NCBI GenBank assembly: GCA_016124585.1
Contig: WGNL01000026.1
Location: 1 to 64,000 of the forward strand
Length of the DNA stretch: 64,000 nucleotides
Source of the DNA: Bacteroidota bacterium
GTDB lineage: Bacteria > Bacteroidota > Bacteroidia > Chitinophagales > Saprospiraceae
Direction of reading: 5' to 3'
The notes below the pieces were generated by a model that saw only the letters and a program-made list of their open reading frames with translations, was not told the DNA's origin and made no database searches. Position 1 is the stretch's first letter. Each line of letters opens with the position of its first letter. Shown here piece after piece: positions 31,741 through 59,558 of the stretch. The position numbers and the translations under genes were made by a program.

Positions 31741-33204
31741 TTAATTTGTTAAGTTATTCAATTTCGCTTCCAACCAAGTTCTATTGAAGATGGGTTCAGC
31801 TTGGGCCATGTCATTCATTAGTTTTTGGTGTGCTTCCAACCATTTTTCTAGCTTCGATAAACTTGCCTGCATTTTAAGTTTGAATATCCGTTGAGAGAAA
31901 CGGATAAGGTTGAAATAACCTTTTTTCTGAAAATCGGTCAAGGATTTGTTCCGCTTCACAAATTGACTAAATGCCTCGGCATGCGCCAGCAGCGCCTCTT
32001 CTTCTTCCAAATCAAAATAGGTACGCAGTAAAAGTGATTTCGCATCGAGGTTGTACCTCAAGTCTGTGTACTCGACCTGAAGCAACAGCGGCAAAACTTC
32101 TGCAGGTTTCCCCACATGGTAAAACCAAGCTGCCAAATTGTAACTATAAGCATTTTCAGCAACGGCTTCAGCCAGTTTGGTGCTGTAGTTTTCAATAAAA
32201 TCCCGCACCCATTTCCGTTCATCGAGGCGAAGCCCAGTAGTCACAATGTTCTTGAAATGCCACTCTGGTAGCACCCCGTCAACAAGCAACAACTGGCGAT
32301 CAAGCTGGAGCTGATACAATTTGAAAACCTCATTTAAAAATTGTTGATACCCGTTGTTGATTTGCTGGATACAAAAGTTTTGCAAGTAGTTGTATAAGTT
32401 TTGAAGTTCCTCATGGCTGAAGTTGTTTTCATATTTCTGAATAGTTGCCTTACATTCTTCGTATTGAAGCAATTTGTTGTTTTTCAATAATTTGTAAAGT
32501 TGAAAATAGACCTTGACGGAAGGCGTTTCTGCTATTCCACTAGGCTTGTTCCCCAAAGTTTCCACTAAGCTTTCAACCATCTGGAAATGTGGTGGTGTAG
32601 CCTTTTGTAATCGGTATCGCTGGGTTCGTTCACAAGCATCCCGTAAGGTTTCAGTCAAATAGTAAGCGTCCAGGAATTGCTGTTTTTCTTCCAAGAATCG
32701 GGTTTCATTCCTGCCCAGTTTCATGCTGATGGCATCCAGTTCGACTGCGGTTCGTATTTTTTTGCCATAAAAATTGGCGGAAAAATTGCCAGACTCAGGT
32801 GTTTCAATATCTCGTTTGGCATTGTTGGAAGCCCAGTCCGTCTTAAGTTGATTGTTTAGGTTCCGCTTTCGCAATTGATTGTAATACAGAGCTTTATCGT
32901 CAAAGACTCCTTGTTCAGAAAGTTTTTCCATGATAAGAAATTGCTCCAACAATCGAAGCGTGTAAGTGAAAATAATGGCCAATTGTGCCTGCTGGTGAGT
33001 TTTGCCAGGAAAAAGCTGTTTGAAAATAACTACTCTGTCACAGCGCCGCTCCGAAAAATCAGGGTAAATTTCGCTCAAATAGTTGGCCAGCGCCAATACT
33101 TGTTTGTGTTTGTTGAAATAGGGCGAGGCAGCAAATTCATTAAATCGAGTCATTTCTTTGCGGGAAAGTGACGCCAATTGTACAATCAACGGGTTGTTTT
33201 TCAT
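31741..33204 (-). CDS. Helical cytoplasmic protein, unknown family
   Basis: 487 residues without signal peptide or membrane helix. It starts MKNNPLIVQLASLSRKEMTRFNEFAASPYFNKH. The whole length is alpha-helix-prone, with Leu/Gln/Lys-rich helices (for example ALYYNQLRKRNLNNQLKTDW, IQKYENNFSHEELQNLYNYL) and a TPR-like look toward the C-terminus (WFYHVGKPAEVLPLLLQV). I recall proteins with the 'ASPYFNKH' opening as common hypothetical proteins in this lineage, but no function. Convergent with the barrel gene (2 nt). Confidence 0.7.
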   Translation of the reverse strand: MKNNPLIVQLASLSRKEMTRFNEFAASPYFNKHKQVLALANYLSEIYPDFSERRCDRVVIFKQLFPGKTHQQAQLAIIFTYTLRLLEQFLIMEKLSEQGVFDDKALYYNQLRKRNLNNQLKTDWASNNAKRDIETPESGNFSANFYGKKIRTAVELDAISMKLGRNETRFLEEKQQFLDAYYLTETLRDACERTQRYRLQKATPPHFQMVESLVETLGNKPSGIAETPSVKVYFQLYKLLKNNKLLQYEECKATIQKYENNFSHEELQNLYNYLQNFCIQQINNGYQQFLNEVFKLYQLQLDRQLLLVDGVLPEWHFKNIVTTGLRLDERKWVRDFIENYSTKLAEAVAENAYSYNLAAWFYHVGKPAEVLPLLLQVEYTDLRYNLDAKSLLLRTYFDLEEEEALLAHAEAFSQFVKRNKSLTDFQKKGYFNLIRFSQRIFKLKMQASLSKLEKWLEAHQKLMNDMAQAEPIFNRTWLEAKLNNLTN

Positions 33205-36498: not shown

Positions 36499-36578
36499 TG
36501 ACAAAAACTAACCAATAACCATCGAAGGACTGATTTTTGTGCAACGATCACATTTCATCACTAATTCAAATTCCCATC

Positions 36579-37127
36579 ATGGAAAACCCTTGGAAAACCC
36601 TTGATTCCGAAATTGTGTATGACAACCCATGGGTTCAAATTACGCATCGAAATGTGCTGAACCCCAATGGGAATCCAGGGATTTATGGAGTGGTTCATTT
36701 CAAAAACCTCGCTATCGCAATTGTCCCAATTGATGAGGATGGTTACACTTGGTTGGTCGGCCAATATCGCTATACCATCGGAAAATACAGTTGGGAAGTG
36801 CCAGAAGGTGGTGGTAGTTTTGAGGATTCACCATTAGATTCTGCCAAAAGGGAATTGGAAGAAGAGACTGGCATTACGGCGAAGACCTGGCTTGAAATTG
36901 GTGAAATACACACCTCCAACTCCGTGACGGATGAGCAAGGTGTCATTTTTGTAGCAAAAGGACTCACGTTTGGAAATGCTGCTCCAGAAGACACAGAGCA
37001 GCTAGAAGTTCGAAAAGTTCATCTCAATGAAGCTGTTGAAATGGTTTTGCAGGGTGAAATAACGGATGGACTTGCCCAAGTTGCTATTCTGAAAACGAAA
37101 ATGATGTTTGAAAAAGGGGTGATTTGA
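36579..37127 (+). CDS. NUDIX hydrolase, ADP-ribose pyrophosphatase-like
   Basis: 182 residues from the ATG at 36579 (MENPWKTLDSEIVYDNPW). An upstream TTG at 36537 is not needed. ADP-sugar pyrophosphatase layout: VVHFKNLAIAIVPIDEDG, LVGQYRYTIGKYSWEVPEGG, then the Nudix helix RELEEETGI. The usual first Glu of the box (GX5E) is Asp here (GGGSFED), while the RExxEE metal-binding core is intact. It probably hydrolyses a nucleoside diphosphate linked to a sugar or similar, in the cytoplasm. It ends 79 nt before the EAD11/iSTAND-like gene. Confidence 0.85.
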   Translation: MENPWKTLDSEIVYDNPWVQITHRNVLNPNGNPGIYGVVHFKNLAIAIVPIDEDGYTWLVGQYRYTIGKYSWEVPEGGGSFEDSPLDSAKRELEEETGITAKTWLEIGEIHTSNSVTDEQGVIFVAKGLTFGNAAPEDTEQLEVRKVHLNEAVEMVLQGEITDGLAQVAILKTKMMFEKGVI

Positions 37128-37206
37128 GTAAGCCAAGCTAAGTAGAATTTACATCCCATAAATTTGTTTTATCTTTCCCCCTCCGCTTTAGGCAAACCCA
37201 TTTCAA

Positions 37207-38292
37207 TTGGAAGAACTAAAACAACAACTGAAATCAATCTTGGTCGAAGACCCCCTCCAACTTTTTAAACAGTTGAAGGAACTGCTGCTGGCCACTTGTC
37301 CGGTTTATAACGAAGTCGTACTGCAAGAGGCCCGTTTCATTCGGACTGATAGTGATAAAAAAGCAAGGTTGATTTCCACAGATGATTCTGACCTACATTT
37401 CAACCAAATAAATGCCTGTCTTTCTCAAATCATAGACAACCTTGAGTCAAAAGACCTAAAATCCACTTCCGAAATTGGCCAAGGCCTGCACGATTATCAT
37501 CGATTTACTTGTGACCGGGTCGATCAAAGTGACAAGTTCCAGCAAATTTTTCAAGCCAAAAAAACAAGTAAAGCTCAATTCTTCTACCTCTACGGCCTCG
37601 ACCTTCAATCGCACAAGGGCATGTTTCGTCGAATCGCTTTTGACTTGGAAGGTAAGTTACAGGATTACCTCAACCCTGGATTGAAAAACTTGAACAAATC
37701 GCTGCAAGTGGAAATCACTTTCGACGTGAGTCGGGACCCTGAAATTTACAAGCAAAATGTCATCAAAAACCTGCTTTCTGCTTTTTCGGTTCGGGTAAAT
37801 GAAAGTGAGCCATTGCTGAAAAAGGACATCGCTTGGATGCAGCAATATAGCCCGATTCTACAAGGTCTACAAAATGGCGATTATGTCTGCATTTTCATCG
37901 CCATCAGTCAATGGGATTGGGACAAAGTGACTACTCCAGCCATGACCCGTTGGTTTATCACTGAATTTTGCGGAGCAACCTTGCCAGAAAATAGTCCTGA
38001 GTACCTCTTTTTCTTTGGAATAATTTACGAAGAAGATAATTCTCTTATCGAAAAAGAAGTAGAAGAACTGATTGTTCAAAGCGATCTTGTTCAGGCACTT
38101 CCTGAACTAGGCATGGTTCGCATGAATGATATTGGAGCTTGGTTCAACAAATATAGTTTCATAGCGCCAGGAACCAGAGAGTTGAAAGAATTAAGGAATC
38201 AATATTTTGGTGCCGCTGCCGAACATTATATGGAAGATGTGGAACTGTCGCTTCAGAAATTGATTGACGAATACAATAAAAAGTTCTTATAA
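37207..38292 (+). CDS. EAD11-like plus inactive-STAND-like protein (first gene of a MoxR/vWA system)
   Basis: 361 residues. The only start after the upstream TAG is TTG at 37207. The N-terminal about 85 residues are helical and follow the effector-associated domain 11 pattern: LKSILVEDPLQLFKQLKELL, NEVVLQEARF, then a helix ending INACLSQIIDNL. From about residue 120 an alpha/beta domain begins FFYLYGLDLQSHKGMFRRIA where a STAND ATPase would have its P-loop, but the GxxxxGK(S/T) motif is missing. Further on, YVCIFIAISQW occupies the Walker B strand and lacks the acidic pair. This is the layout of the 'inactive STAND' proteins described with EADs in NTP-dependent conflict systems. Such proteins are thought to relay signals through EAD-EAD contact. 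Both family assignments are by eye. The MoxR gene starts 54 nt downstream. Confidence 0.65.
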   Translation: MEELKQQLKSILVEDPLQLFKQLKELLLATCPVYNEVVLQEARFIRTDSDKKARLISTDDSDLHFNQINACLSQIIDNLESKDLKSTSEIGQGLHDYHRFTCDRVDQSDKFQQIFQAKKTSKAQFFYLYGLDLQSHKGMFRRIAFDLEGKLQDYLNPGLKNLNKSLQVEITFDVSRDPEIYKQNVIKNLLSAFSVRVNESEPLLKKDIAWMQQYSPILQGLQNGDYVCIFIAISQWDWDKVTTPAMTRWFITEFCGATLPENSPEYLFFFGIIYEEDNSLIEKEVEELIVQSDLVQALPELGMVRMNDIGAWFNKYSFIAPGTRELKELRNQYFGAAAEHYMEDVELSLQKLIDEYNKKFL

Positions 38293-38300
38293 CGAAGATT

Positions 38301-38327
38301 GGAAGCATTAGGAATGCTCCATTTTTT
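38301..38327 (+). terminator. Terminator-like hairpin inside the MoxR/vWA gene string
   Basis: GGAAGCATT (38301-38309) pairs with AATGCTCC (38313-38320) with one bulge and an AGG loop, followed by ATTTTTT. It lies between the first gene and the MoxR start and could reduce read-through into the second and third genes. Confidence 0.45.
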
Positions 38328-38346
38328 CCATCCTCAACCCATCAAG

Positions 38347-39291
38347 ATGAAAATTGAACTACATCCTCGTATTGCCCAGCCTTTTCGCCCTCAGGATTAT
38401 ATTTTGCACGAAGCTTTAAAAAATGCAGTTGAAGTGGCCATAGCACTTGGTCAACCGCTGTTGTTGACTGGGGAGCCTGGCACTGGAAAAACCAAATTGG
38501 CACAAAAAGTAGCCCTCGACCTTTCAGGACGTACTGGGTCGAATTTTGCAGACAAGCCATTGGTTTTCAACACCAAAACCACCAGTGCTGCCAGAGATTT
38601 ATTCTACACCTACGATGCGCTTTCGCATTTTCAGGCAGCAAATATCAAGCAAGTTGAAGGGGCTAAAGTGCACAAACTGGCTGATTTCATTGAGCTTCAA
38701 GCGCTGGGTAAGGCAATTGCTTACAGCAATCCAGCAACCGTGGATGGCTCAAAATTCAGCACAGCGCTTCCAGAAAAGGCTCAAAGTTCTGTGGTATTGA
38801 TTGATGAAATCGACAAAGCACCCCGTGATTTTACCAATGATATTTTGGACGAAATTGAGAATTTTCGCTTTTCCATCAAGGAGCAGGACAATTACTCCAT
38901 GTCGAAATCGGGCGATCAGCATATTGTGGTCATCATGACGAGTAATTCCGAGAAAAACCTGCCAGATGCCTTCCTTCGCCGTTGTGTTTTTTACCATATT
39001 CCATTTCCAAGCCCGGATTTGCTACGTGACATTGTGAAGACCCAACTGGGTTCCAGCACAAAATTTACCGAACAGATGCTGGACACCATGATTGAGAAAT
39101 TTGGTGAAATACGAAAGCGTACCGTTCGGAAACCACCCGCTACAGCAGAGCTAATCGCATGGCTTAGAATCCTTGAAATGCAAAATTTCATGGAAACCAA
39201 TGAGGCAAAGCAAAGGCTGCAATTACTTGACAATCTGTCCATTTTGGTGAAAACGAGGGAAGATTTAGAAGCCATAAAAGGGCTTTTTTAA
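38347..39291 (+). CDS. MoxR-family AAA+ ATPase
   Basis: 314 residues from the ATG at 38347; a TTG at 38299 is in frame but would put the terminator-like hairpin inside the gene. Walker A LLLTGEPGTGKTKLA (about 38-52), Walker B VVLIDEIDKAPRDF (about 155), sensor 1 VVIMTSNSEKNLPDAFLRRCVFYHIPF with the arginine finger region, then the lid helices with RKPPATAELIAWL. MoxR ATPases usually act as chaperones that remodel a vWA-domain partner; the next gene has a vWA-like region, so the two probably work together. Confidence 0.85.
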   Translation: MKIELHPRIAQPFRPQDYILHEALKNAVEVAIALGQPLLLTGEPGTGKTKLAQKVALDLSGRTGSNFADKPLVFNTKTTSAARDLFYTYDALSHFQAANIKQVEGAKVHKLADFIELQALGKAIAYSNPATVDGSKFSTALPEKAQSSVVLIDEIDKAPRDFTNDILDEIENFRFSIKEQDNYSMSKSGDQHIVVIMTSNSEKNLPDAFLRRCVFYHIPFPSPDLLRDIVKTQLGSSTKFTEQMLDTMIEKFGEIRKRTVRKPPATAELIAWLRILEMQNFMETNEAKQRLQLLDNLSILVKTREDLEAIKGLF

Positions 39292-39399
39292 TCTATGAAA
39301 CAATCTTTTGGGGAATGAACAATACAATTTTCACCTAATATTCAGGCCATTCAACCGAATTCATATAGCGTTTTTCCATTAGACACCTTCCTGCAAAGG

Positions 39400-42300
39400 T
39401 TGGAACTTGCTGGATTTACAATCAGCCCAGCTGAGCGGCTTCGAGTGATGAAATTGCTGGAAAGTCTGGGTCGTGCCAACCTGAATTCTCCTGAAAAACT
39501 TAAATATTTATTGTCCCCAATCATCGTGCAAAGAAGTGCTGAGCAGGAGCGGTTTTATGAAATTTTTGACCACTACTGGGAGGAGTTGCAGCAGCCTTGG
39601 CCGATGCCTGTCGAGACTCAAGCCAAAAAAAAGGAAGTTCCAGATTGGGTGCGGTGGTTGTTGGTTGCAGCTGTGCTTGGTGGGTTAGCATGGGCATCCG
39701 CAAAATATATTCAACAATCAAATCTTCCAGCCCCAATAATTTTCTTTCAACACCAAGAGAATGTCGCTATTGGTGACACGCTTCATTTTGATAATTTAAG
39801 TGAAAACATTGACTCCACAGCCCTTCGTTGGGAAATCGTGGATACAATGACTGGCCAAACAGAACTAGTTGATACCCAGTCATTTGACCTTGATTTTGTG
39901 CCTGCAAAAGCTGGTGAAAACCAAAACCGGGAAGTCCGGCTAAAATATCTCAAACCACTTGAGGGTAGTGACCAAACGCCAACTGTCCATGCTTCCAGTT
40001 TTCATATTCGCTGCAAAAATCCACCTGTAATTGACGCCATCTTGACTGTCCGTGAGGTAAACCCTAATACGAAAGCTGCTTTTGAAGCAAAAATCACAGA
40101 TGCTTCAGCGGTCGAATTAATATGGGATTTCGGCGACAGTTCCACTGCCAAAGGAGCAAAAGTGACACATAAATACGCTAATGCTGGTGAGTATCAAGTT
40201 AAACTGATAGCCACTCGGCTTGGCTTGGATGGCGATTGTTCCATTGTGAAAACCAGCACAATTAGTGTCGGACAAGACAAGGCCTATTTGGATGCCAAGG
40301 CAATGGTGCTTGACCAAGTGGAAGCGAGCGTCAATTTCTATTGGGGCACTTGGGTACTGATGGGCTTATTCGGGTTAGCGATGATTTGGTTTTGGGTAAA
40401 ATGGGTAGCGAGAAAACCACCACCCATGCCCGATGCAGCGGGGATTGACCTGTCTGCCATTTCTGAAAAATACAAAGCTGCTGATAAGGGCCCCTATTTT
40501 ATACCATTTCGCCCACAGGATGGGTTCGTTCGAATGGAGCCACAGTTTTTCAGGTTGGCCGATGTGTTTCGACAACGGCAAGAAGGATTGCGGAGAAACA
40601 TGGACGTGCCAGCTTCGGTCAAAAAAACCATACAAGAAGGTGGCTTTCCGAATTTGCTAAGGAAGGCGGATGCGGTTCCTACGGAATACCTTTTCTTGAT
40701 TGACGAACAATCACCCAGCAGCCACCTGTCAAAATTGTATTCTTTTTTGGTGGATTTTCTTCGTAAAAGGGAAGTGCTTGGCGAGGTTTTTTACTTCAAA
40801 ACTGAACCAATCCGATTTTGGAACAATCAATTCCCGGAAGGGATTACGCCCGACCAGTTACATAGACTTTTTCCTTTCCACCGACTCATCGTGATGGGAG
40901 ATGGTCATGGTCTGTTTGACCCTCACCAAGTTGGTAAATCTAGCCTTCCAGCATTACGTCCCGATGCATCTGCTTTTTTTGGCATGTGGAAACAACGGCT
41001 GCTTTTGACCCCAATCCCAGTTGTCTCTTGGACATATCGGGAGGGGGCTTTGCATGGCTACTTTGCCATTTTTCCAAGTGACACGGAAGGATTGGGTGAG
41101 GCCGTAAATTACGTGGAGCGTGGCATGAGCAGTGAGGATTTGCCTACTTATTCTCTTTGGTGCGAACAATTATTGGAAGGCCGCCGGGAAACAGACCTGA
41201 ACTACCGCCGCTGGCGCACGGCGCCTGACCACCGAGATTTCTTGAAAGATTATCCTGAACTGTATCGCTGGGTTTGTGCCTTGGCTGTTTACCCAAAACC
41301 TGATTGGAATATCACCCTAGCTATTGGACGGGCTTTGGCTCCTTTTGGAATTGAACTGAACTACGATAATATCTTGCGCATTGCTCGAATTCCTTGGCTT
41401 CAAACAGGTGATATTTCACCAAAGTTGCGTAAGGAACTTCTCAATGACATCGACCCAGAAGCAGAACGCCTTGCAAGGGAAGCGGTGAAAATAGAATTAG
41501 AGGCTGTGGTGGCGCTCGTGCAGGGCAGCCATGCGAATCAGGAACATAAAATCAATTTGGCCCTTCAAAATTTTGCGGTGGCACCTGATAATCCGGTTTC
41601 ACAAACTGCCATTCGAGAGTTGCTGGCATTGGGATTGATAACTCCTCGACAGCTAAACGATCTGAACCAAAATGTTGAGCGATTCACGGCACAAAAGGAG
41701 CAAGCAACATGGAAATCGAATCCAATATCACAGACTTTACAATCAACTTCGGCTGATAATGCGACTCTAGCACCTGATATTCATGCCTTTCTTGACGAAA
41801 ATAAACCGAAGCCAGTCACCCCTGAGAAACCGTTTTTAACTAAAGATTTTTGGCGGGCGTCCGTAGCTACTATTTTGTACCTGCTCATTTTCATTTTTGC
41901 TTGGCATTATGGCGGCACAAAAGAACTGTCAAACTGGACAAAGCCATTATTTTCCCAAAATGAGGATTGTCAGGTGGAATATGCAATGGTTTATGCTTTA
42001 ATAAAAGAATGCAATGCGGACAGCAATATTTTGTACAATAATGAAGGTGTAAGAAGTTTCAACAATTTTTTGGCTTCCCAAGAAGATAGTATCCCTGATC
42101 TGGAATATGGAAATACTGTGACGTGGCTTGAAGCAGAGGCTAATTTCAAAAAGGCACTGAAAATCAAGCCTGATTATGAATTGGCAAAGCGAAACCTTGG
42201 CAGCCTATATTTTAATTCTGGTAAACTAGTTTATGATTCAAAACTGCAAGCACTTGACTTCACCAATGTTGGGCCATATAGCCCAAGTATTGTCTGGGAT

Positions 42301-43707
42301 GCTGCTCTGCCACAGTTCCAACGATCGCTTGCCTTTGATTCCGTGAAAATTGACGCCCTGCACGCCCTTGGCTTGATACATTTTTATGCTGAACGCAAAG
42401 ACTCGGCTGAATCTTTTTACAACGCAATTCTTGAGGCTACAGATAGTCTTTACTTTGATACCTTACGTGCTTACCCGAACCTGCAATCACTACTTTATAA
42501 AAATGGTAAAGTAGTATTGGAGGAAGTTGCCATTACCGTTTTGGATGAAAAATCAGGCAATCCCTTGTCAGATGTTTTGGTTGTTTCTGATAGTATTTCC
42601 AAGATAACTGACATGACGGGTAATGCTACCTTAGAACAACCTCGAGGACAGTTGTCAACTTACCTTTTGACCAAAAAAGGTTATTATTCCTTAAGATTCC
42701 GACCCAAAGTCAAGTCGCTTGCCTACACTGTAAGTATGAAAAAGCAAATTATTGTGGAGAAAGTAATTGATTCGGATAGAGACGGTGTGCCAGATGTCAA
42801 TGACAAATGTCCCAAAGAACCAGGAGACCCAAAGAATGCAGGCTGCCCAAATATTACTCCCATACAAACATTCAAAGAACCAGTAATGATTTTTGTGAAA
42901 GGCGGCAGTTTCCAAATGGGATGCAATGAAAAAAGGGATAGTGCTTGCGAACCTGATGAATTGCCGATTCACCAAGTCAGACTTCGTGATTTTGAAATTG
43001 GAAAATACGAAGTGACAAATGAAGAGTTTGCAGAATTCTTGAACGACTATGGTGCCAACCCAACTTCCGTCAACAATAAAGAAGGTTCGTCATTGATAAA
43101 GGAGCACCCTTTTGGCATTCAATTCCCTAAACAGATTGTCAGCCAAAAGGAATTAGATGATTCCTCAAGTTCAAAATTTGCTCCTAGGAAAGGCTATGAA
43201 AAATACCCAGTTATCAATGTTAGCTGGTACGGAGCAGTGGCCTACATCCAATGGCTTTCAGAACGTACGGGCAAGAATTACAGGTTGCCAACCGAAGCAG
43301 AGTGGGAGTATGCGGCACAAGGCGGCAACAATTCACCTGGATTTAGATACAGCGGAAGCGATAAAATTGGTGAGGTCGCTTGGTATTCGAGAAATTCAAG
43401 TGGGCGCACACATGCTGTAGGCGGCAAAGCCCCCAATCAACTTGGCATTTTTGATATGACAGGGAATGCGGACGAATGGTGCTCTGATTGGTACGATGCC
43501 CGCTACTATCAAAATTTTGTGAAAGCAGAAGCTTATAACCCCGTTGGCCCTTCCTCTGGAGAGTTAAAAGTAATGCGGGGCAATCAGTTCAATGATTACT
43601 ATTCTGATATTCAGGTAGTTGACAGGATTGCCGTTAAGCCAGATTATATTGGCAATGAAACTGGCTTTCGAGTTGTGTTGGAAGTCAGGTATGAATCCGG
43701 AAAGTAA
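39400..43707 (+). CDS. Three-helix membrane protein with vWA-like, PKD, TPR, TSP3 and FGE-sulfatase-like domains
   Basis: 1435 residues counted from the TTG at 39400. No ATG exists between the in-frame TGA at 39316 and residue 16, and the N-terminal domain seems to begin further upstream (FPLDTFLQRL at about 39373-39402), so the true start is uncertain. Order: helical N-domain; TM helix (about 83-104); PKD-like domain (about 205-292, IWDFGDSS); TM helix (317-337); cytoplasmic region with vWA-like core YLFLIDEQSPSSH (430) and a helical part to about 790; TM helix (821-839); TPR-like part (907-1010); carboxypeptidase-regulatory-like strand domain (1040-1117); TSP3 Ca-binding repeat DSDRDGVPDVNDKCP; FGE-sulfatase-like domain (1160-1430). 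Positive charges flank the helices so that the vWA part is inside and PKD and FGE parts are outside. The MIDAS motif is imperfect (DxxSxS), and the FGE part lacks the catalytic Cys pair. Probably a transmembrane sensor or scaffold for the MoxR ATPase. Confidence 0.75.
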   Translation: MELAGFTISPAERLRVMKLLESLGRANLNSPEKLKYLLSPIIVQRSAEQERFYEIFDHYWEELQQPWPMPVETQAKKKEVPDWVRWLLVAAVLGGLAWASAKYIQQSNLPAPIIFFQHQENVAIGDTLHFDNLSENIDSTALRWEIVDTMTGQTELVDTQSFDLDFVPAKAGENQNREVRLKYLKPLEGSDQTPTVHASSFHIRCKNPPVIDAILTVREVNPNTKAAFEAKITDASAVELIWDFGDSSTAKGAKVTHKYANAGEYQVKLIATRLGLDGDCSIVKTSTISVGQDKAYLDAKAMVLDQVEASVNFYWGTWVLMGLFGLAMIWFWVKWVARKPPPMPDAAGIDLSAISEKYKAADKGPYFIPFRPQDGFVRMEPQFFRLADVFRQRQEGLRRNMDVPASVKKTIQEGGFPNLLRKADAVPTEYLFLIDEQSPSSHLSKLYSFLVDFLRKREVLGEVFYFKTEPIRFWNNQFPEGITPDQLHRLFPFHRLIVMGDGHGLFDPHQVGKSSLPALRPDASAFFGMWKQRLLLTPIPVVSWTYREGALHGYFAIFPSDTEGLGEAVNYVERGMSSEDLPTYSLWCEQLLEGRRETDLNYRRWRTAPDHRDFLKDYPELYRWVCALAVYPKPDWNITLAIGRALAPFGIELNYDNILRIARIPWLQTGDISPKLRKELLNDIDPEAERLAREAVKIELEAVVALVQGSHANQEHKINLALQNFAVAPDNPVSQTAIRELLALGLITPRQLNDLNQNVERFTAQKEQATWKSNPISQTLQSTSADNATLAPDIHAFLDENKPKPVTPEKPFLTKDFWRASVATILYLLIFIFAWHYGGTKELSNWTKPLFSQNEDCQVEYAMVYALIKECNADSNILYNNEGVRSFNNFLASQEDSIPDLEYGNTVTWLEAEANFKKALKIKPDYELAKRNLGSLYFNSGKLVYDSKLQALDFTNVGPYSPSIVWDAALPQFQRSLAFDSVKIDALHALGLIHFYAERKDSAESFYNAILEATDSLYFDTLRAYPNLQSLLYKNGKVVLEEVAITVLDEKSGNPLSDVLVVSDSISKITDMTGNATLEQPRGQLSTYLLTKKGYYSLRFRPKVKSLAYTVSMKKQIIVEKVIDSDRDGVPDVNDKCPKEPGDPKNAGCPNITPIQTFKEPVMIFVKGGSFQMGCNEKRDSACEPDELPIHQVRLRDFEIGKYEVTNEEFAEFLNDYGANPTSVNNKEGSSLIKEHPFGIQFPKQIVSQKELDDSSSSKFAPRKGYEKYPVINVSWYGAVAYIQWLSERTGKNYRLPTEAEWEYAAQGGNNSPGFRYSGSDKIGEVAWYSRNSSGRTHAVGGKAPNQLGIFDMTGNADEWCSDWYDARYYQNFVKAEAYNPVGPSSGELKVMRGNQFNDYYSDIQVVDRIAVKPDYIGNETGFRVVLEVRYESGK

Positions 43708-43734
43708 ACTCCTTCTTTCCAAAATAGCTATTCC

Positions 43735-45660
43735 ATGAAAAGTTTGCGCTTTTTCACTTTTTTCCTTCTTCCGCTTTTTTCGGCCTTATTGATGAATGCA
43801 ACATGGCGACATGCGCATCATCCACCAACTTGGAATCCAGATGCTGGCTATATTCCCTCTTGGACGGAAGGTGCCTCCGTCACCACTTCGTCCAATCAGA
43901 AAGATGCTTTCAATATCATTGATGGCGACCCAAACACGCACTGGCAGTCGGGTGGGGTAGTGCCTGGCAAAGATGAGGGGCTATTAGAAAACATGACCAT
44001 TGATTTTGGGCAACTCCGACCAGTTGGGCAAATACACACACGCCACTGGGCAGGTGAGGTGGGTACCGCCATTTCCACAACACTTTTGCTAAGTTCTGAT
44101 GGAATTTTCTGGCAAAAAGTGGCTGAGCTTGACCCCACATCCCTTCACATGGTCATTACTGTTTTACCGAAGGAAATTAATGCCCGCTACCTCCGTTTGG
44201 AGCACCAACTTGTAAGAAAAGATTGGAACAAGGCATACATATGGGAAGTCAAAGCCTACGATAGGTTTGGCCCCTATGGAGCAATGCCGCCGCCCTCAAA
44301 AGGGCATGTCAGCATCAAAGAAATGCTGGGTGTAAATGGTTATTGGAGCTTTGGTACTGACCAGTATTCCGATCAGCTTGCCCCGCTTGGAGGCCCCTAT
44401 CGTTTCAAGCCTGTTGCTTCGCACCTTCGCAATTACCATGACATGAGCTGGGATTTGAAAACCCCAAGTGACCTCATCGACTTCGTCAAAATGGCCAATG
44501 GCGGTGGTACACCTGCTACTGAGTGGCTCAATTGGGATAGGGAGTACAAGGCATGGCATGAAGGGGCAGGTATGAACGTACAAGCAAGCCTTCAATTTTA
44601 CAAGTTCAAGCCAGAAGACTGGAAAAATCCCAGGGAGGAAGGTCGGCGATATGCCTCGGCATTCACCCGGCATTTCGGTTCAAAAAATGGGAATGGCATG
44701 ATATGTTCCATCGAAGCTGGAAATGAACCTTGGCATTACCCGGCAGAAGTGTATCGGGAAATTTTGCTTGGCATGGCAGAGGGTGCTGAATCCAGCGACC
44801 CTACTGTGGAAGTTTTCCCATGTGCTTTGCAAGCTTTTGACCCAATGGCTGAAAAAAATGGCCCTTGGAAAAATTACATCGGCGACAGGATCACCCCGGA
44901 ATCAGCCAGATTACTTGATGGCATCAACGTCCACTGTTACAGTTACGCCACTAACCAGGATGCTAAAACTTCCTACAATTATGCCTTTGAAAAGGATGAC
45001 CACAAGCGCAGAGGGGTACAGCCAGAGCATAGCAACTCGACCTTTTGGGAAATATTGAATGCCATCCGCTGGCGCAACACAAATATGCCCGGCAAGAAGA
45101 TTTACCTTTCAGAATGGGGCTGGGACAGTGACGGGGCAGGAGAGGACTGTACACATGATGTTTGCGTAAGCGAAGACGCCGCTGCCAAATATGCTGTACG
45201 GGGAGCTTTGATAGCTTCCCGCTTGGGAATTGACCGAGCCACTTGGTTTTTTCATGCAAATGACAAATCGCCCTCCGGTCTCTACACTCGTAGCGGACTA
45301 CTTGGTTCCTCCAAAACAGGTTTTGCCAAGAAAAAAGCTTTTGAGGCATTGGAGTCCTTGGTCGCTATGTTGGGTGACAAATACTTCCTTTCAGTGTTGC
45401 AAGAAAACGAGCATGGCTGGGCTTACCTGTTTGGTAATGCAGGTGGGAAAGCTACCCATTTGGTGGCATGGCGCCCTGTAGACAGCAATGTGGTAGTTAA
45501 TCGTGTGGTAAGTATCAAATTAGGAAAGTGGAAAGCCAAAGCTGCCTATTCTTTGATGGATGAACCTGGCAGAAACGTTCTCCAATATTACGCCACTTAT
45601 AAAAATGGGGAACTGGTACTGAACATCAACGACACACCAATCGTGTTGGAACTGGAATAG
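43735..45660 (+). CDS. Exported glycosidase-like protein: discoidin (F5/8 type C) plus clan-A glycoside hydrolase
   Basis: 641 residues. Signal MKSLRFFTFFLLPLFSALLMNA. Residues about 40-185 form an F5/8 type C carbohydrate-binding domain (NIIDGDPNTHWQSGG ... ARYLRLEHQ). Then a TIM barrel (about 195-560) with IEAGNEPWHYP (acid/base Glu 331, preceded by Asn as clan A requires) and KIYLSEWGWDSDG (nucleophile Glu 460). A small beta-domain closes the protein (LVLNINDTPIVLELE). The GH family number cannot be fixed by eye (GH39- or GH5-like). There is no T9SS tail. It starts 27 nt after the vWA/FGE gene, so it is probably co-transcribed with the MoxR system. Confidence 0.8.
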   Translation: MKSLRFFTFFLLPLFSALLMNATWRHAHHPPTWNPDAGYIPSWTEGASVTTSSNQKDAFNIIDGDPNTHWQSGGVVPGKDEGLLENMTIDFGQLRPVGQIHTRHWAGEVGTAISTTLLLSSDGIFWQKVAELDPTSLHMVITVLPKEINARYLRLEHQLVRKDWNKAYIWEVKAYDRFGPYGAMPPPSKGHVSIKEMLGVNGYWSFGTDQYSDQLAPLGGPYRFKPVASHLRNYHDMSWDLKTPSDLIDFVKMANGGGTPATEWLNWDREYKAWHEGAGMNVQASLQFYKFKPEDWKNPREEGRRYASAFTRHFGSKNGNGMICSIEAGNEPWHYPAEVYREILLGMAEGAESSDPTVEVFPCALQAFDPMAEKNGPWKNYIGDRITPESARLLDGINVHCYSYATNQDAKTSYNYAFEKDDHKRRGVQPEHSNSTFWEILNAIRWRNTNMPGKKIYLSEWGWDSDGAGEDCTHDVCVSEDAAAKYAVRGALIASRLGIDRATWFFHANDKSPSGLYTRSGLLGSSKTGFAKKKAFEALESLVAMLGDKYFLSVLQENEHGWAYLFGNAGGKATHLVAWRPVDSNVVVNRVVSIKLGKWKAKAAYSLMDEPGRNVLQYYATYKNGELVLNINDTPIVLELE

Positions 45661-53573: not shown

Positions 53574-56500
53574 TCAGTGATGAATCATAACCTTACCCTC
53601 AAAAACCATCTTTCCATTAGTCGTTGCTACCACTTGATAAATTCCAGTAGGCTGTGTCTGAAGATTAAATCTGTAATTTTCATTTTGAAGAGAAGCACCA
53701 TTTTCCTCAAAAACAATTTGCCCAAGTTGGTTGAAGACACGAAGGTCGAGCTTGGAGTGTGAGGACTTGGAGGTATTACCCAATGTGAAATTTCCGCTAG
53801 ATGGATTTGGGTAAAGTACAAAATCAGCACTTCCAACAGGATTGTCAATTGTTTTAGAAATAAAATCCACCGTCACGTAGCCAGTGATGTCACAACTATT
53901 TGCATCAACCGCTGTAACACTGTAAAGGCCGGAACTCAAATCGGAAATAGTTTCTCCAGTATTAGCATTGCTCCAGTAGTATTCAATGGGGGGCGTACCA
54001 CCTGATGCAACGGCAGTTGCAGAACCATTCGGTCCAATCAATTGGGTCTGAGGCGAGGAAGTAACGCCCATTTGCAGTGGTGGCGGTGTACCCAATGTGA
54101 AATGGGTGGTAAATGGACAACCTTGACTGTCAAAAATGACAAGCATGTAGCTGCCTGCGGGAACATCAGTAAGGTTTTGTTCAGCAGAAATTGCGTCCCA
54201 GTTGAAAATATAATTCGGTGTGCCCCCAGATACAGCAATATTGATGAAGCCATCGCTGTCTCCAAAACAGGTTACCCCTGCTGAGTCTAGGACAGTTACA
54301 GAAATAGCTGTATCCGGACTGCTAACTGTGTAAGTTCCATTGCGTTCACAACCATTATTGTCAAACACAGTGAGTTGATAATTGCCAGCTGGTAGGTTTG
54401 AAACTTCTTGAGTGGTAGCCATATTGCTCCATTCATAATGATAGGGCAAATCACCACCATGTGGCAGAGCGAAAATGCTACCAGTATTTCCACCAAAACA
54501 AGCAACATCATGCACCACGACTGAATCCAGCAAAAAAGTAGTTGTCGGTTCAAATACCGTAGTCATCGTAGTTCCTGTACACCCAATTTGGTCAGTGACA
54601 GTCACATGATAATTCCCTGCCGAGACCCCATTTAAATTCTGATCAATTGAAATGGAGTCTCCAGCGGCATTTTCCCAATAAAAGGAATATGGCACAAGGC
54701 CACCGCCTACCATCAGTGGGATTGCACCATCTGTCCCACCTTTACAGTGGACATCCATCACTTGGCTGCCCGCTATTGTTGGATTAACAGCTCCAAAAGT
54801 AGAAATCGGCATTAGTGGCGAAACTGCTGTGCAACCCGTATTGTCAGTGATAGTTACCCGATACTGTCCAGTTGGCAAGTTGTCGTTCATTAGGGTTTGA
54901 CTATCGGTGGTGCCGTGTACGCTGTTGCTCCAATTGAATTGATAGGGTACGGCACCTCCTTGTATGTCCACACTGAGCTGCCCAGAATTTGTTCCCGCAC
55001 AAATCACTTCGTTACCAGTCGAAACTTGCTGAACATTGATAGCAGTGTATTCAGGTGGCACTTTTACAGACATAAATTCAATAGTACAACCGGCTGCATC
55101 TGTGATAGTCACGTGGTAGTCCCCAGCAACTGGATTCATTAGACAGGTGGTAGTATCGCCTGTTTCCCAAGCAAACTGAAAAGGGGCAATTCCACCATTT
55201 ACATTGACGCAGACATTGTCCACTTGAACTGATTGGCAATTTCCTGTCGGAACCCCCAAGTTTGAAATTGGGACCAATTTGTCTGGTGCGTCTACGTAAA
55301 GTGGCGGCAGACTGGTTACACAGCCATTGCCATCTGTTACAACGACATTATAGCTTCCTTCAGAAAGACCACTTACGTCTTCCGTTGAAGAACTGAAAGT
55401 GGCAGAGGGGTTCGACCATTGGTAAGAATAGGGTAACGTGCCGCCAGAAACGCTGATATCAATTCCACCTTCGTTTCCTTGGTAGCAGGCGATATCTTCG
55501 ATGTTTTCCAAAGAAACCACTAATTCAGCTGGTTCTTGAAGTGTGATGATATTGAAAGAATTGGTGCAACCCAAAGCGTCGTGAACAGTGGCAGCAAAGT
55601 TTTGTGCTGGTAAATTGGTGGCTACTGGACCAGTTTGCCCATCGCTCCAAAGTATTGAATATGGTTCAGTGCCTCCCGAAACTGTCATGGCCAATTGCCC
55701 AGTTTGCCCAAAACAAAGCGGTGAAAATGCTTGGTAATCCAAAACAAGAACCTGAACTGAGTCAATGGTAGTAGTATGGATGCTTTTGCAGCCGTTAGCA
55801 TCAGTAATGGTTACTGAATATTGGCCATAAGATAGTCCTGGTAGGATAGGGCCAGAATCGTCCGTACTCCATTCATAAGAAAAAGGTGGCTGCCCGCCGC
55901 TTTGCACAAACGCCTCCAATTCATTTTCATCTCGCCCAATACAAAAAGGGCCTGTCTGGTTGATACCTGCAGTCATGATTTCGGGTGAAGCTATTGGCCC
56001 GAAACTAGCAGTTGCTGTGCAACCATAATTATCCGTCGCAGTAACCTCATAAGTACCATTGCCAATGCCCATTAAGTTCTGCATGGAAGAGCCATCGCTC
56101 CAAGAATAGCCAAAATTGCCAACACCTCCACTTGCATTGATATTCACATAGCCGTTAGTTTGTCCGGCACAATCCGGCGGATGGATTTCACTGGCAGTAA
56201 TACTTATCGGCTGAGGCTGTGTTAAATTGATGGATTGGTTAAAAATGCAGCTTTTTTGATCCCGTACGGTTACCGTATAGCTGCCTGCAGCAATATTGGA
56301 CAAGGTGGAACCCGAACCGCCATTGTTCCAAACATAGGAATATGGCGCCGTTCCACCTTCAGCTGTAACTGTTATGCTGCCATTGCTTTGTCCATTGCAA
56401 CTTGGCTGTTGAAAGCCCAAAGCGGCCAAGGAAATGGGGGATGGTTGGTCAACTAAAATTTGGGACAGTACAGTCGAACACCCATTTTCATCTGTAACAG

Positions 56501-59500
56501 TCAAATTGTATTCTCCAGCTGCCAACCCCGAAATAGAAGGTGAGGTAGCGTTGTAGGTTCCCGTTGAATTGCTCCATTGAAAATTCAAAGGGGGCGTTCC
56601 TCCAAAAATGGTCAAATTGATGGCTCCATCATTGCCTCCAAAGCAACTAATTGAACTTACTTCAGATTGCACGGATAAGATTTCAGGTTGGGTGACAGGG
56701 ATATTGCTTACCACATTCTGACAGTTGCCTTCCGTTACTGTCGCAGAATATGTGCCTGCAGTTAGGCCACAAATACTGGGCCCAGTCATATTATTGCTCC
56801 AGGTCACGGTGGTGTTTTGCCCTGCAATGATATCTAATGAAATACATCCATCTGACCCTCCTTGACAGCTCACGTGTTGTACGTTGTCCACTTCTACATT
56901 GGCTGCTGGCCCGTTCACAACAACGACAGGTACGACCACTCGGCACTGTTCAGGTGAACTATCTGTAACAGTAAAGGCATAAGAGCCTTGGGTCAAATCT
57001 GTCAGCATGAGCCCCCCAGCTTGTGGGGGAATTGGCGCACCTGCCCAAGTGTAATTGAAAGGTGGCGTTCCGTCCAATGGCGTAAGGTCGATTGTGCCGT
57101 CACTGCCAAGACAAGTGGTGACTGGGCTACTAGCTGTAACGATTTGGCTGATATTAACAATTGTAGTAACCGCCAAGGTATCAGCACTGGAGCAACCGCC
57201 AGCATCTGTGATAGTCACTGCATAGGTATTTACTGTGCCAAGATTGTTGTCACTGAAAATTTGGATAGAGTCATTGATTGAGCCTGTGTTCCAAATATAT
57301 TGGTAAGGTCCAGTACCCGTCCCCATATTTTCTACTGAAATGAATTTGGTTGAGTTTCGGCAAAGTGTGGGGGCATCTGGAATGAAGGCAGCGGGACCTG
57401 GCTGGACTGTGTAAGTCACCATCAATGTATCACGACAACCATTTACAGCTTCTGAGACGAAATAATAGTCAGTTGTTGCATTTGGGGTTACCACAGGTCC
57501 AACTTCTTCACCTGGCAAAAAAGGTAAATGGTCAAAATAGGAAAGACTGCCGTTCAGGCCGTTCTCGTCGTTAACGTTAACTGAGTTTAGGTCAAAAGTT
57601 TTACCAAGGCACTCTCCTGGAGTATCCGAAGTAACCAGTTTTGGGCCGGGTAAAATAATGATACTGGCTGGAGTCCGTTCATTCGAAACACAGCCTGCGA
57701 GGGTGTTTTCCTCAGCATAAAAGACCAGTTCCAAAGTGTCCAAACTGTGGTTGACAAGTAAGGTTGGGCCTGGGAAGAGCGTATCACCAATCCCAATTGC
57801 AGTACCACCTGTTAACGATTCATACCAGCTTATTTGCCCAAAATTCACTGGTTGAGCAGATACAAAACCATTACCGCCACTACAAACGATGCTACCTTGT
57901 GTAGTGACTGGCATTACAAAATACTCGTCAACATCGCCGTTGCAATTGCTGTCGAAATCATCGCAGAGTATCTCCTGTTCGCCTGGGTTTTGGTAAAATT
58001 CCTGGTCGTTGCAATCAGTATCATTGTCTACGTAACCTGGGAAATTAGCTGGCTGGCAAGAGGCAATGTATTGGTCAGGTGTGCCGTAGCCATCACCGTC
58101 TGCATCCCGGTAGTACACATAGTTGGGAAATCCCAAATCAATGGAGCCGTAAAAAACAATATTGTCAATGGCGAGATCGGCAAATTTACCATTGCCGCCC
58201 TTGCCATTGAACCTGAACTGAACGGTCTGGCCGTTGTAATCGTCAAGGTCAATGAATTTACGATGCCACTTGTTTCCCTTATTTCCTGCAACTGTCCACA
58301 ATGTCGCCCAAGTCACCCCCCCATCTATACTGGCCTCAAATGACAAACTGCCGATATGTACCCCGAAAAGATGGTAGTCGAAAGACATATCGCAGGAGTC
58401 AGGATTTGCAACAACTTGAATGCAATCGGAAACAAGCATAGCCCGCTTACCATTGGTACAACCGCTTCCTGATGCTTCCAAGTAAATGTAATTTCCGCCA
58501 CCAGGATTGTCACCGTTAGGCCCAGTATTTTCGGTGATAGTGGTATCCGTATTTACCAACCAGTCGAAATTATCGTTGAGTGCATTTCTCCAAGGTCCAG
58601 TGATAGGACATGTTGCGCCGCAAAACGGTGTGCAAAGTGCCTGATTGTTGAAGTTTTCGACAATGGTTGCAGGTGGTGGAGAACAGGTCGTGCTGACCTG
58701 CACCGGACACGAGTTGATGGAATAAACTCCCGGAGCACAATTTTCTCTCAGGTAAACTTCATAGGTTGAGTTTGGAGCCAAGCCGCTAATCTTGGGCATT
58801 GCGCAGCTACCTATTATGACGGTACCGTTTGCTCCAGGTTGGTCATCGTTTCCAGGTGTAAATCCTACTGGGCCATATTCAAAAATCAGGTTGGAGCAAG
58901 TTGAGCCTTTAGTCCAACTGAAAACAGCTGAGGTGGAATCAACTTCCTCCACTGTCACGTCCGTAGGGGGCTGGCAGTCCGTCGTTTCAAATACCAACTC
59001 TACGAATTCCAAATAACCATAATTGGCGATTCCATCATCACAGACCATCAGCGTCCAATGGCCAATGGGGGAGGTGCCGTCATTGAAGTCGGCGAAATTG
59101 CCTTCTGGCAAATAAGCCCCAAGGAACGGGGCAGCGGCGTTGCGAATGTTTTGGAGGTTGCACGCACCAGGTGAAGTACTTGCTCGAAAAACAGTGTATT
59201 CGTCGCAGTTCCCGTTAGGATTTCCATAATTGCTGTTCACATCACCATTGTCTGTGCTTACTTCAACAAGGACTCCTGAAGGCGATTTTAGGTAAATGTC
59301 AAGGTCAGCATCCCAGTCGTGTTGTATAATAAGTCGCAATTCTTTTAAATAAACATTTGTGCCAAGCGTAGTGCCAGGAGCAGTGGTCACATCGACCTGG
59401 AATTCGTTGAGCGGGCCGCAGGACTGCTCGATGAAAAGCCCGAGTCCGCAAGCTGATGGGTTGGTCAACACTGGAGGGTTTGCATCGGCCAGCAACATAG

Positions 59501-59558
59501 AAGCACTGGTGAGCAGGCATGTCCAAAGGAGGAAAAATCGTTGGGTCAAAACGGTCAT
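53574..59558 (-). CDS. Giant multidomain SprB-repeat adhesin with T9SS type A domain
   Basis: 1994 residues. Signal MTVLTQRFFLLWTCLLTSASMLLA. Order: proprotein-convertase P-like domain (about 40-195, IIQHDWDADLDIYLKSPSG ... IGHWTLMVCDDG); fibronectin III (about 197-290); MAM-like sandwich (about 295-470); Asp-rich metal-binding motif (about 481-548, RDADGDGYGT, DNDTDCND, DFDSNCNG); Ig-like segments (WYESLTGGTAIG); fourteen SprB-type repeats (about 804-1900, GGTPPLNFQWSNS ... GLAAGEYNLTVTDENGC type); type A sorting domain (about 1909-1994, FVLYPNPSSGNFTLG). Probably a long surface filament or secreted adhesin. Unlike the 2070-6872 adhesin it has ordinary base composition and uses type A rather than type B sorting. 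Confidence 0.9.
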   Translation of the reverse strand: MTVLTQRFFLLWTCLLTSASMLLADANPPVLTNPSACGLGLFIEQSCGPLNEFQVDVTTAPGTTLGTNVYLKELRLIIQHDWDADLDIYLKSPSGVLVEVSTDNGDVNSNYGNPNGNCDEYTVFRASTSPGACNLQNIRNAAAPFLGAYLPEGNFADFNDGTSPIGHWTLMVCDDGIANYGYLEFVELVFETTDCQPPTDVTVEEVDSTSAVFSWTKGSTCSNLIFEYGPVGFTPGNDDQPGANGTVIIGSCAMPKISGLAPNSTYEVYLRENCAPGVYSINSCPVQVSTTCSPPPATIVENFNNQALCTPFCGATCPITGPWRNALNDNFDWLVNTDTTITENTGPNGDNPGGGNYIYLEASGSGCTNGKRAMLVSDCIQVVANPDSCDMSFDYHLFGVHIGSLSFEASIDGGVTWATLWTVAGNKGNKWHRKFIDLDDYNGQTVQFRFNGKGGNGKFADLAIDNIVFYGSIDLGFPNYVYYRDADGDGYGTPDQYIASCQPANFPGYVDNDTDCNDQEFYQNPGEQEILCDDFDSNCNGDVDEYFVMPVTTQGSIVCSGGNGFVSAQPVNFGQISWYESLTGGTAIGIGDTLFPGPTLLVNHSLDTLELVFYAEENTLAGCVSNERTPASIIILPGPKLVTSDTPGECLGKTFDLNSVNVNDENGLNGSLSYFDHLPFLPGEEVGPVVTPNATTDYYFVSEAVNGCRDTLMVTYTVQPGPAAFIPDAPTLCRNSTKFISVENMGTGTGPYQYIWNTGSINDSIQIFSDNNLGTVNTYAVTITDAGGCSSADTLAVTTIVNISQIVTASSPVTTCLGSDGTIDLTPLDGTPPFNYTWAGAPIPPQAGGLMLTDLTQGSYAFTVTDSSPEQCRVVVPVVVVNGPAANVEVDNVQHVSCQGGSDGCISLDIIAGQNTTVTWSNNMTGPSICGLTAGTYSATVTEGNCQNVVSNIPVTQPEILSVQSEVSSISCFGGNDGAINLTIFGGTPPLNFQWSNSTGTYNATSPSISGLAAGEYNLTVTDENGCSTVLSQILVDQPSPISLAALGFQQPSCNGQSNGSITVTAEGGTAPYSYVWNNGGSGSTLSNIAAGSYTVTVRDQKSCIFNQSINLTQPQPISITASEIHPPDCAGQTNGYVNINASGGVGNFGYSWSDGSSMQNLMGIGNGTYEVTATDNYGCTATASFGPIASPEIMTAGINQTGPFCIGRDENELEAFVQSGGQPPFSYEWSTDDSGPILPGLSYGQYSVTITDANGCKSIHTTTIDSVQVLVLDYQAFSPLCFGQTGQLAMTVSGGTEPYSILWSDGQTGPVATNLPAQNFAATVHDALGCTNSFNIITLQEPAELVVSLENIEDIACYQGNEGGIDISVSGGTLPYSYQWSNPSATFSSSTEDVSGLSEGSYNVVVTDGNGCVTSLPPLYVDAPDKLVPISNLGVPTGNCQSVQVDNVCVNVNGGIAPFQFAWETGDTTTCLMNPVAGDYHVTITDAAGCTIEFMSVKVPPEYTAINVQQVSTGNEVICAGTNSGQLSVDIQGGAVPYQFNWSNSVHGTTDSQTLMNDNLPTGQYRVTITDNTGCTAVSPLMPISTFGAVNPTIAGSQVMDVHCKGGTDGAIPLMVGGGLVPYSFYWENAAGDSISIDQNLNGVSAGNYHVTVTDQIGCTGTTMTTVFEPTTTFLLDSVVVHDVACFGGNTGSIFALPHGGDLPYHYEWSNMATTQEVSNLPAGNYQLTVFDNNGCERNGTYTVSSPDTAISVTVLDSAGVTCFGDSDGFINIAVSGGTPNYIFNWDAISAEQNLTDVPAGSYMLVIFDSQGCPFTTHFTLGTPPPLQMGVTSSPQTQLIGPNGSATAVASGGTPPIEYYWSNANTGETISDLSSGLYSVTAVDANSCDITGYVTVDFISKTIDNPVGSADFVLYPNPSSGNFTLGNTSKSSHSKLDLRVFNQLGQIVFEENGASLQNENYRFNLQTQPTGIYQVVATTNGKMVFEGKVMIHH

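Follow-up and report, generated by a model that had tools for sequence, protein, structure and literature searches.

Pairs of MoxR-type AAA+ ATPases and vWA proteins remodel partner proteins, and in the ternary systems of Kaur 2020 (PMC7159879) a third component joins them. For the iSTAND type of these systems, passages of that paper describe an inactive STAND (iSTAND) protein with an N-terminal effector-associated domain (EAD), a MoxR ATPase, and a vWA protein with a CoxE-type N-domain, membrane segments and a variable C-terminal domain; N-terminal membrane segments are reported for ~28% and formylglycine-generating enzyme (FGE)-sulfatase-like (FGS) domains, a common C-terminal choice, for ~22%, and some envelope domains are preceded by a membrane segment. 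By these passages, the system type, the membrane segments, FGS and the coupling to EADs are already published (PMC7159879, PMC8195603). Here we describe three adjacent genes (the trio) at 37207 to 43707 of a 64,000-base stretch (the window; contig WGNL01000026.1) from the 6.63-Mb, 45-contig genome of a Bacteroidota bacterium of the family Saprospiraceae. Judged by class and domain content, the trio is very probably a membrane-spanning version of the iSTAND-type MoxR-vWA ternary system.

The relevant passages of the two main sources conflict on the lectin-fold domain: in Kaur 2020 the third component is the sensor and the vWA C terminus the effector, whereas in Dore 2024 (PMC10907252) the lectin-fold domain is the sensor and the third component the output. 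A counter-invader role is a prediction in both. A passage of PMC12839542 says that the iSTANDs of MoxR-vWA systems evolve rapidly and have peptidase effectors; the membrane-spanning PKD/FGS form is absent from it. Compared with the iSTAND systems as these passages describe them, the trio differs in a PKD-bearing loop between the CoxE-type N-domain and the vWA region (similar in 15/26 relatives) and in a third membrane helix that would put the variable slot outside (24/27 sequences). The VMAP systems with CLec/FGE sensors diversified by diversity-generating retroelements (DGRs) likewise join vWA and lectin fold in one protein beside MoxR; passages of Dore 2024 propose a sensor role and predict some CLec placements to be periplasmic. 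Unlike them, the trio has iSTAND in place of VMAP, and neither a reverse transcriptase match nor a template repeat was found in the window's genome. A VMAP-type ternary system was rejected for the trio, as the third component is not VMAP: gene 1 matches EAD11 and iSTAND, and no other Pfam family, over cut-off.

A first, sequence-only reading of this locus had taken the single-polypeptide fusion of sensor, membrane anchor and vWA to be undescribed, a claim left unsupported because Kaur 2020 already reports membrane segments and FGS domains at the frequencies given above. The rest of that interpretation survived (EAD11, iSTAND, MoxR, a CoxE-type vWA by profile, topology and conservation). Neither PKD nor amidase occurs in the main text of PMC7159879 (its supplementary source data lay outside the search), and no paper was found joining three or more of MoxR, vWA, PKD domain and Saprospir. 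Among the literature matches listed, the term effector-associated domain occurs in none, and EAD11 only in a mitochondrial disease model paper. Four features are apparently not in print: a PKD loop that separates N-domain and vWA, a slot that usually faces outward in the family, the empty-site cassette and the EAD11 inventory described below.

Domain content of the three genes

Three same-strand open reading frames (ORFs) were confirmed by the ORF listing (37207-38292, 38299-39291 and 39400-43707). Below, L numbers denote fetched loci and G numbers genomes; L040 is from Saprospiraceae bacterium UBA6168 and L043 from Saprospiraceae bacterium Tobar13m-G26. Inside and outside are predicted placements, and aa denotes amino acids.

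37207..38292, +: gene 1, EAD11-iSTAND protein, 361 aa, TTG start
37216..37446, +: EAD11 adaptor domain, aa 4-80 (Pfam 41.5 bits, cut-off 26; genome search; four helices in model)
37507..38019, +: inactive STAND (iSTAND) domain, aa 101-271 (Pfam 57.7 bits, cut-off 24)
38347..39291, +: gene 2, MoxR-type AAA+ ATPase, 314 aa (AAA_5 41.8 bits; Walker A and B patterns)
39400..43707, +: gene 3, vWA component, at least 1435 aa, three membrane helices
39412..39594, +: CoxE-type helical N-domain, inside, aa 5-65 (CoxE-family similarity; four helices in model)
39655..39711, +: membrane helix 1, aa 86-104
39724..39999, +: beta-rich, possibly Ig-like region, outside, aa 109-200 (strands in model)
40018..40215, +: PKD domain, outside, aa 207-272 (PKD_4 E 5e-15)
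40342..40410, +: membrane helix 2, aa 315-337
40552..41199, +: CoxE-type vWA region, inside, aa 385-600 (D435 and D501 in metal ion-dependent adhesion site [MIDAS] positions; alternating strands and helices in model)
41200..41739, +: helical linker after vWA, inside, aa 601-780 (conservation; helices in model)
41848..41904, +: membrane helix 3, aa 817-835
42130..42441, +: TPR-like region, outside, aa 911-1014 (all TPR matches under cut-off)
42877..43677, +: FGS domain (C-type-lectin fold), outside, aa 1160-1426 (Pfam E 4e-50)
43582..43662, +: highly divergent C-terminal loop of FGS, aa 1395-1421 (11% identity to L040 and L043)

The helical N-domain and the STAND-like domain lacking a P-loop that had been noticed in gene 1 were identified by Pfam as EAD11 and iSTAND. 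The pattern G-x4-GK[ST] was absent from all 30 related iSTAND ORFs, and comparison of the gene 1 profile with PDB sequences gave a single chance-like match (E 0.65). Relatives of gene 1 carry ATG or GTG in place of its TTG start. Likewise, the AAA_5 match and Walker patterns of gene 2 agree with its earlier assignment as a clear MoxR ATPase. Simple Walker A and B patterns were found in 43/43 related MoxR ORFs, and the NCBIfam model MadB_ATPase matched gene 2 at E 8e-24, under its cut-off. Each of these two ORF sets includes two duplicates (L064 and L075, which repeat L039 and L041). Gene 2 has the predicted features of an intact MoxR-type AAA+ ATPase, the MoxR assignment leaning partly on gene context. 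Its start was placed by the ORF tool at TTG 38299; relatives begin at an ATG equivalent to 38347, which is probably the true start.

The three helices, the PKD domain and the FGE-sulfatase domain that had been named in gene 3 were all recovered, whereas its TPR matches remained under cut-off (TPR_11, E 1e-5, just below) and TSP_3 reached E 0.05 only. The block at aa 109-200 was modelled with a predicted local distance difference test (pLDDT) score of 65-83 and had two-domain Ig-like fold matches at high root-mean-square deviation. The frame is open upstream (39348-39400) and about nine codons before TTG 39400 are homologous to relatives but include no ATG or GTG, so the start at TTG 39400 is provisional; gene 3 relatives in L042 and L044 have an ATG 18-19 residues earlier.

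The vWA region had been called vWA-like, and this stands as a CoxE-type assignment by sequence profile but is weak by direct family match (VWA_CoxE E 0.28 for the whole of gene 3, 0.056 for the region alone). In the 27 vWA-component sequences, VWA_CoxE reached E <=0.1 in 5, the best value being 7e-4. Profile-profile alignment of the region with 16 CoxE-family proteins (a profile built from 16/18 loci) scored 39.3 (E 3e-4, HH-suite probability 39%), against a top score of 20.5 in 40 column-shuffled controls. The N-domain of gene 3 also resembles a CoxE-family protein at L060 (36% over 61 aa, E 1e-9). This protein (11597-12757; VWA_CoxE E 1.3e-56) adjoins an iSTAND-MoxR pair on the opposite strand, and no membrane-spanning vWA relative lies within the 19 kb fetched there; its profile had no match to PDB sequences at E 0.01. 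It may represent an ancestral-like form.

Two groups of well-known proteins resemble parts of the trio. CoxD-CoxE and NorQ-NorD are MoxR-vWA chaperone pairs for metal-centre maturation and share with the trio an AAA+ MoxR protein and a CoxE-type vWA partner; in the trio, by contrast, the vWA protein is predicted to be three-pass and receptor-like and has an EAD-iSTAND partner. PorK and GldK are FGE-fold lipoproteins of the type IX secretion ring, located outside the cytoplasm. Gene 3 has their FGS fold (NCBIfam GldK E 8e-23, under its cut-off; PorK 9mzu E 2e-12), but here FGS forms the C-terminal portion of a membrane protein with a vWA region.

Predicted membrane topology and the outside domain

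Of the 27 vWA-component sequences, 25 have helix 1, 26 have helix 2 and 24 have helix 3. The side richer in lysine plus arginine faced the vWA region at helix 2 in 24/26 sequences (1 against, 1 tie) and at helix 3 in 17/24 (1 against, 6 ties), and faced the N-domain at helix 1 in 15/25 (4 against, 6 ties). The flanking charges thereby bear out the earlier placement of the vWA region inside. Probably the N-domain, vWA region and linker lie inside, and the PKD loop and C-terminal part outside. Assignment of the C-terminal slot to the outside is supported by this charge pattern and by fillers that belong there (OmpA, Amidase_2).

The contents of the slot were tallied in 29 relatives (26 + 3). FGS occupies it in 15/29 (13/26 + 2/3), OmpA in one relative of the same genus (L120), Amidase_2 in one (L065), Fib_succ_major in one (L061) and caspase in two (L082 and L084). 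Four of the 29 have CarboxypepD_reg-type matches and none of the other fillers, one has TSP3/PKD matches, and four have no family at E 0.001. In the vWA component of L065 (8013-12989, -), the domain in the slot is an N-acetylmuramoyl-L-alanine amidase domain, a possible cell-wall-acting variant.

An active FGE has a cysteine pair, C-x4-C, near its C terminus. The FGS domain of gene 3 matched FGE and the variable protein 2y3c in PDB, and C-x4-C was absent from the last 90 aa of 17/17 FGS domains, by which an active formylglycine-generating enzyme is ruled out. The absence of the cysteine pair together with the divergence of the loop at 1395-1421 leans towards binding rather than catalysis as the way in which the domain would act.

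Against L040 and L043, the loop is the least conserved stretch of the domain. Its identity to both L040 and L043 is 11%, against 57% and 61%, respectively, in the rest of the domain, and none of the equal-length segments was as low (0/181 and 0/185). Between L040 and L043 themselves the loop is 33% identical, against 67% elsewhere (0/181 segments as low), and between L121 and L122 it is 22%, against 59% (12/161). Over all 17 FGS domains, mean loop identity was 30% for pairs excluding the window's copy and 13% for pairs with it, so that the loop varies in general and the window's copy is extreme. Among Lewinella-type relatives (L042 is from Lewinella cohaerens DSM 23179), the loop is retained or varies mildly; its identity was 93% for L070-L042 (81% elsewhere), 59% for L070-L044 (67%) and 52% for L042-L044 (69%). 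The divergence could be a result of selection for new binding or of decay.

The trio as a cassette

The genes bounding the trio adjoin each other directly in two relatives of the same genus, which delimits the cassette as follows.

37128..43734, +: three-gene cassette (empty site in L123 of G203 and L124 of G204)
36537-37127: NUDIX gene, left bound
43735-45660: gene with F5/8-type C and weak glycosidase matches, right bound

In L123 and L124, conserved genes continue beyond the two flanking genes, with no trio between them; G203 is without the trio, and G204 carries it at another locus (L120). Since the flanking genes are adjacent there while the trio sits elsewhere in G204, it behaves as a self-contained cassette that would move or be lost as one whole, with no fourth gene as part of it at the window site. 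NUDIX loci were fetched from five other genomes of the genus, of which two have the empty site and three have other neighbours; in five further genus genomes there was no NUDIX match at E 1e-20. Gene 1 was found in 8/14 genus genomes (8/10 of good quality). In L040 and L043 the trio occupies the equivalent position, flanked left and right by conserved genes (L118 and L119 are identical to L043 and L040 and were counted once). Identity to L043 is 90% for gene 2, 75% for gene 1 and 54% for gene 3; the next closest by gene 1 is L039 (71%), where gene 3 ends at a contig end and leaves no FGS for comparison.

Conservation of the three genes as neighbours, an expectation of the sequence-only reading, was borne out at 44 distinct iSTAND loci, from which L064 and L075 were excluded. 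MoxR was found in 41, a related vWA protein in 32 and all three in 26, with the same gene order and strand in 24/24 loci evaluated; no related vWA protein was found in 12/44 and no MoxR in 3/44, some of these at contig ends. At 27 loci selected for having all three components, the distances computed for MoxR, the vWA core and the iSTAND part are correlated (0.89-0.91), and 12-14/24 tree splits are common to the components. iSTAND was over cut-off in 42/199 genomes of the family and in 2/395 genomes of a phylum sample, the window's genome included. A plasmid or phage origin was rejected, as gene 1 had no match at E 1e-5 in either of the record collections searched.

Elsewhere in the window, 31741-33204 (-) encodes a 487-aa protein with no Pfam family over cut-off. 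It belongs to a large paralogous family with up to 20 copies per genome (G207) among ten genus members searched, and 13 in G203. The genes at 2070-6872 (+) and 53574-59558 (-) encode two large proteins with SprB repeats and C-terminal signals of the kind used in type IX secretion.

EAD11 genes and the proposed function of the trio

The window's genome has 16 EAD11 matches, 15 of them over cut-off, and a single iSTAND. A search for other EAD11 fusions, as the sequence-only reading had proposed, yielded 14 genes besides gene 1, and eight of them have a Pfam partner over cut-off; the partners are PNP_UDP_1, TonB_C, protein kinase, FGE-sulfatase, TPR, TIR_2, LRR-Roc-COR and TRADD-like_N. Those with none are L049, L050, L051, L052, L054 and L055. 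Hydropathy suggests one likely helix in the proteins of L046, L048, L051, L053 and L058 and several in that of L054; L045 has a single weak hydrophobic stretch, within its enzyme domain. The L046 gene (3641-5566, +) encodes EAD11, one membrane helix and TonB_C, joining an inside adaptor to an envelope domain. At L045 (3471-4571, +), an EAD11-nucleosidase (PNP_UDP_1) gene is directly followed by one with a P-loop-like motif near its start (GDGGIGKTTL), and the two possibly form a system of their own.

Across the 199 family genomes, EAD11 occurs in 40/42 with iSTAND and 56/157 without. Because relatives of gene 1 often bear an EAD11 of their own, the count was lowered by one for each iSTAND match, which left 39/42 against 56/157 (Fisher p 6e-12). 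Among EAD11-bearing genomes, with the own copy likewise removed, the median copy number is 11 with iSTAND and 5 without; ten genomes have counts of at least 26. With genome size removed, the partial correlation between EAD11 and iSTAND is 0.20 (p 0.047) without the own copy and 0.31 with it.

The explanation that we favour, at a probability of roughly 0.55 for the whole, is a membrane-spanning immune switch that calls EAD11-tagged effectors. The variable FGS domain, possibly together with PKD, would bind an envelope or incoming-phage molecule outside, and binding would shift both inside parts of gene 3. An ATP-driven MoxR hexamer would then remodel the vWA region and the bound iSTAND protein, by which the EAD11 domain of gene 1 could be freed or clustered and recruit EAD11-tagged effectors encoded elsewhere (TIR, nucleosidase-like, protein kinase, Roc-COR and others). 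The outcome would likely be a containment or suicide response to invasion. The parts of this scheme differ in strength. Defence is the fairly probable purpose of the trio; the chances that FGS is a sensor passing its signal from outside to inside are evenly balanced, and effector recruitment through the EAD11 of gene 1 falls slightly short of that. The outward placement of an FGS that lacks the cysteine pair, and the presence on gene 1 of an adaptor instead of an enzyme, lean to the sensor reading of Dore 2024, without proving it.

Several observations weigh against this scheme. The association between EAD11 and iSTAND is largely shared with genome size, and the genomes are related. EAD11 is unrecognised in 9/30 iSTAND ORFs; in G203 gene 1 has no match but EAD11 has 19; and EAD11 occurs in every one of the 14 genus genomes, including all 6 without a gene 1 match. 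As EAD11 sets exist without the trio, EAD11 proteins must be able to function unaided or with different cores too, and gene 1 can be no more than one hub for them; the earlier proposal of an effector coded elsewhere is compatible with the 14 further EAD11 genes but is not secured by them. Within gene 3, D435 and D501 are each kept in only 20/27 sequences, the placement of D501 being a low-confidence extension of the CoxE alignment, and the MIDAS serines are not conserved. The vWA region profile had no match to PDB sequences, the 50 fold-search matches listed for gene 3 are filled by PKD and lie mainly over residues 109-293, with no vWA chain among them, and so do not bear on the vWA fold, and the whole model has a pLDDT of 65 and a predicted template-modelling score of 0.35. 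A loop like the PKD-bearing one is present in only those 15/26 relatives, and the caspase-like domain of L082 follows helix 3, a poor fit to an outside slot; L084, the other caspase-bearing relative, lacks a third helix. The window's FGS has lost the RGGSW...CR...R pattern present in most relatives, so that decay could account for the loop. The correlated distances could be produced by vertical inheritance alone. The conserved chromosomal setting in L040 and L043, together with the lack of a plasmid or phage match, gives no sign of a mobile defence island, and a PADLOC scan assigned neither gene 1 nor gene 3 to a family, with 17 weak ones for gene 2.

An alternative model, which we consider unlikely, follows the logic of Kaur 2020: the iSTAND-EAD11 protein would sense inside, MoxR would remodel the vWA region, and the outside C-terminal domain would be the effector, acting on the envelope by FGS binding, OmpA anchoring or peptidoglycan cutting by an amidase. 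The slot is indeed exchanged between relatives in the manner of effector slots, in L065 it is filled by a domain of an amidase family, and the passages cited label vWA C-terminal domains as effectors (PMC7159879). However, the majority of the fillers recognised show no obvious enzyme (FGS lacking the cysteine pair, OmpA, Fib_succ_major). As gene 1 bears an adaptor and the EAD11-linked enzymes are coded elsewhere, the natural output would be inside, and Kaur 2020 itself argues that most systems lack signs of effector export.

Less likely still is a role outside defence, with the trio as a CoxD/CoxE- or NorQ/NorD-like MoxR-vWA chaperone that assembles or monitors a Saprospiraceae envelope complex, its FGS, PKD, TPR and OmpA parts gripping a client or the cell wall. 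Such a role would suit the CoxE type of the gene 3 N-domain and vWA region, the resemblance of FGS to the gliding and type IX secretion ring proteins PorK/GldK, and the conserved neighbourhood in L040 and L043. It fits poorly with cassette-like presence, absence and movement inside one genus, with the patchy spread (42/199 and 2/395, as above), with the swapping of outside domains, and with an EAD11 adaptor common to TIR and Roc-COR proteins.

The divergent loop lies in what we take to be the equivalent of the variable regions that DGRs alter in lectin-fold proteins, and RVT_1 matches of unassigned type occur in 4/8 genus genomes searched, including G199, the source of L043, where the match is on a different contig from the trio. 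That a reverse transcriptase mutates the loop, the mechanism of the Dore 2024 systems, is nevertheless highly improbable: the window's genome has no RVT_1 match (E 1e-5), nor have G205, G154 and G061; its assembled contigs hold no template-like copy of the FGS end (a copy in a gap is conceivable); the window, L040 and L043 hold no template-like copy of the loop; and the NNY codon excess in the window loop (p 0.05) is exceeded in several other FGS loops.

Returning to the immune switch, the changeable binding domain, which in this family usually faces outward (FGS with a fast-changing loop, OmpA, amidase or other), may tentatively be seen as a transmembrane receptor that drives a CoxE-type vWA/MoxR engine and genome-wide EAD11 effectors. 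As the membrane is predicted to lie between the lectin-fold domain and the ATPase, iSTAND and adaptor parts, topology and ligand tests on this system could separate the effector and sensor models. Empty sites in close relatives and a one-genome list of candidate EAD11 partners make pull-down and deletion tests straightforward. If the receptor reading is true, these systems could detect an infection while it is still at the envelope and has not entered the cell, in contrast to the inside sensing proposed for most of them.

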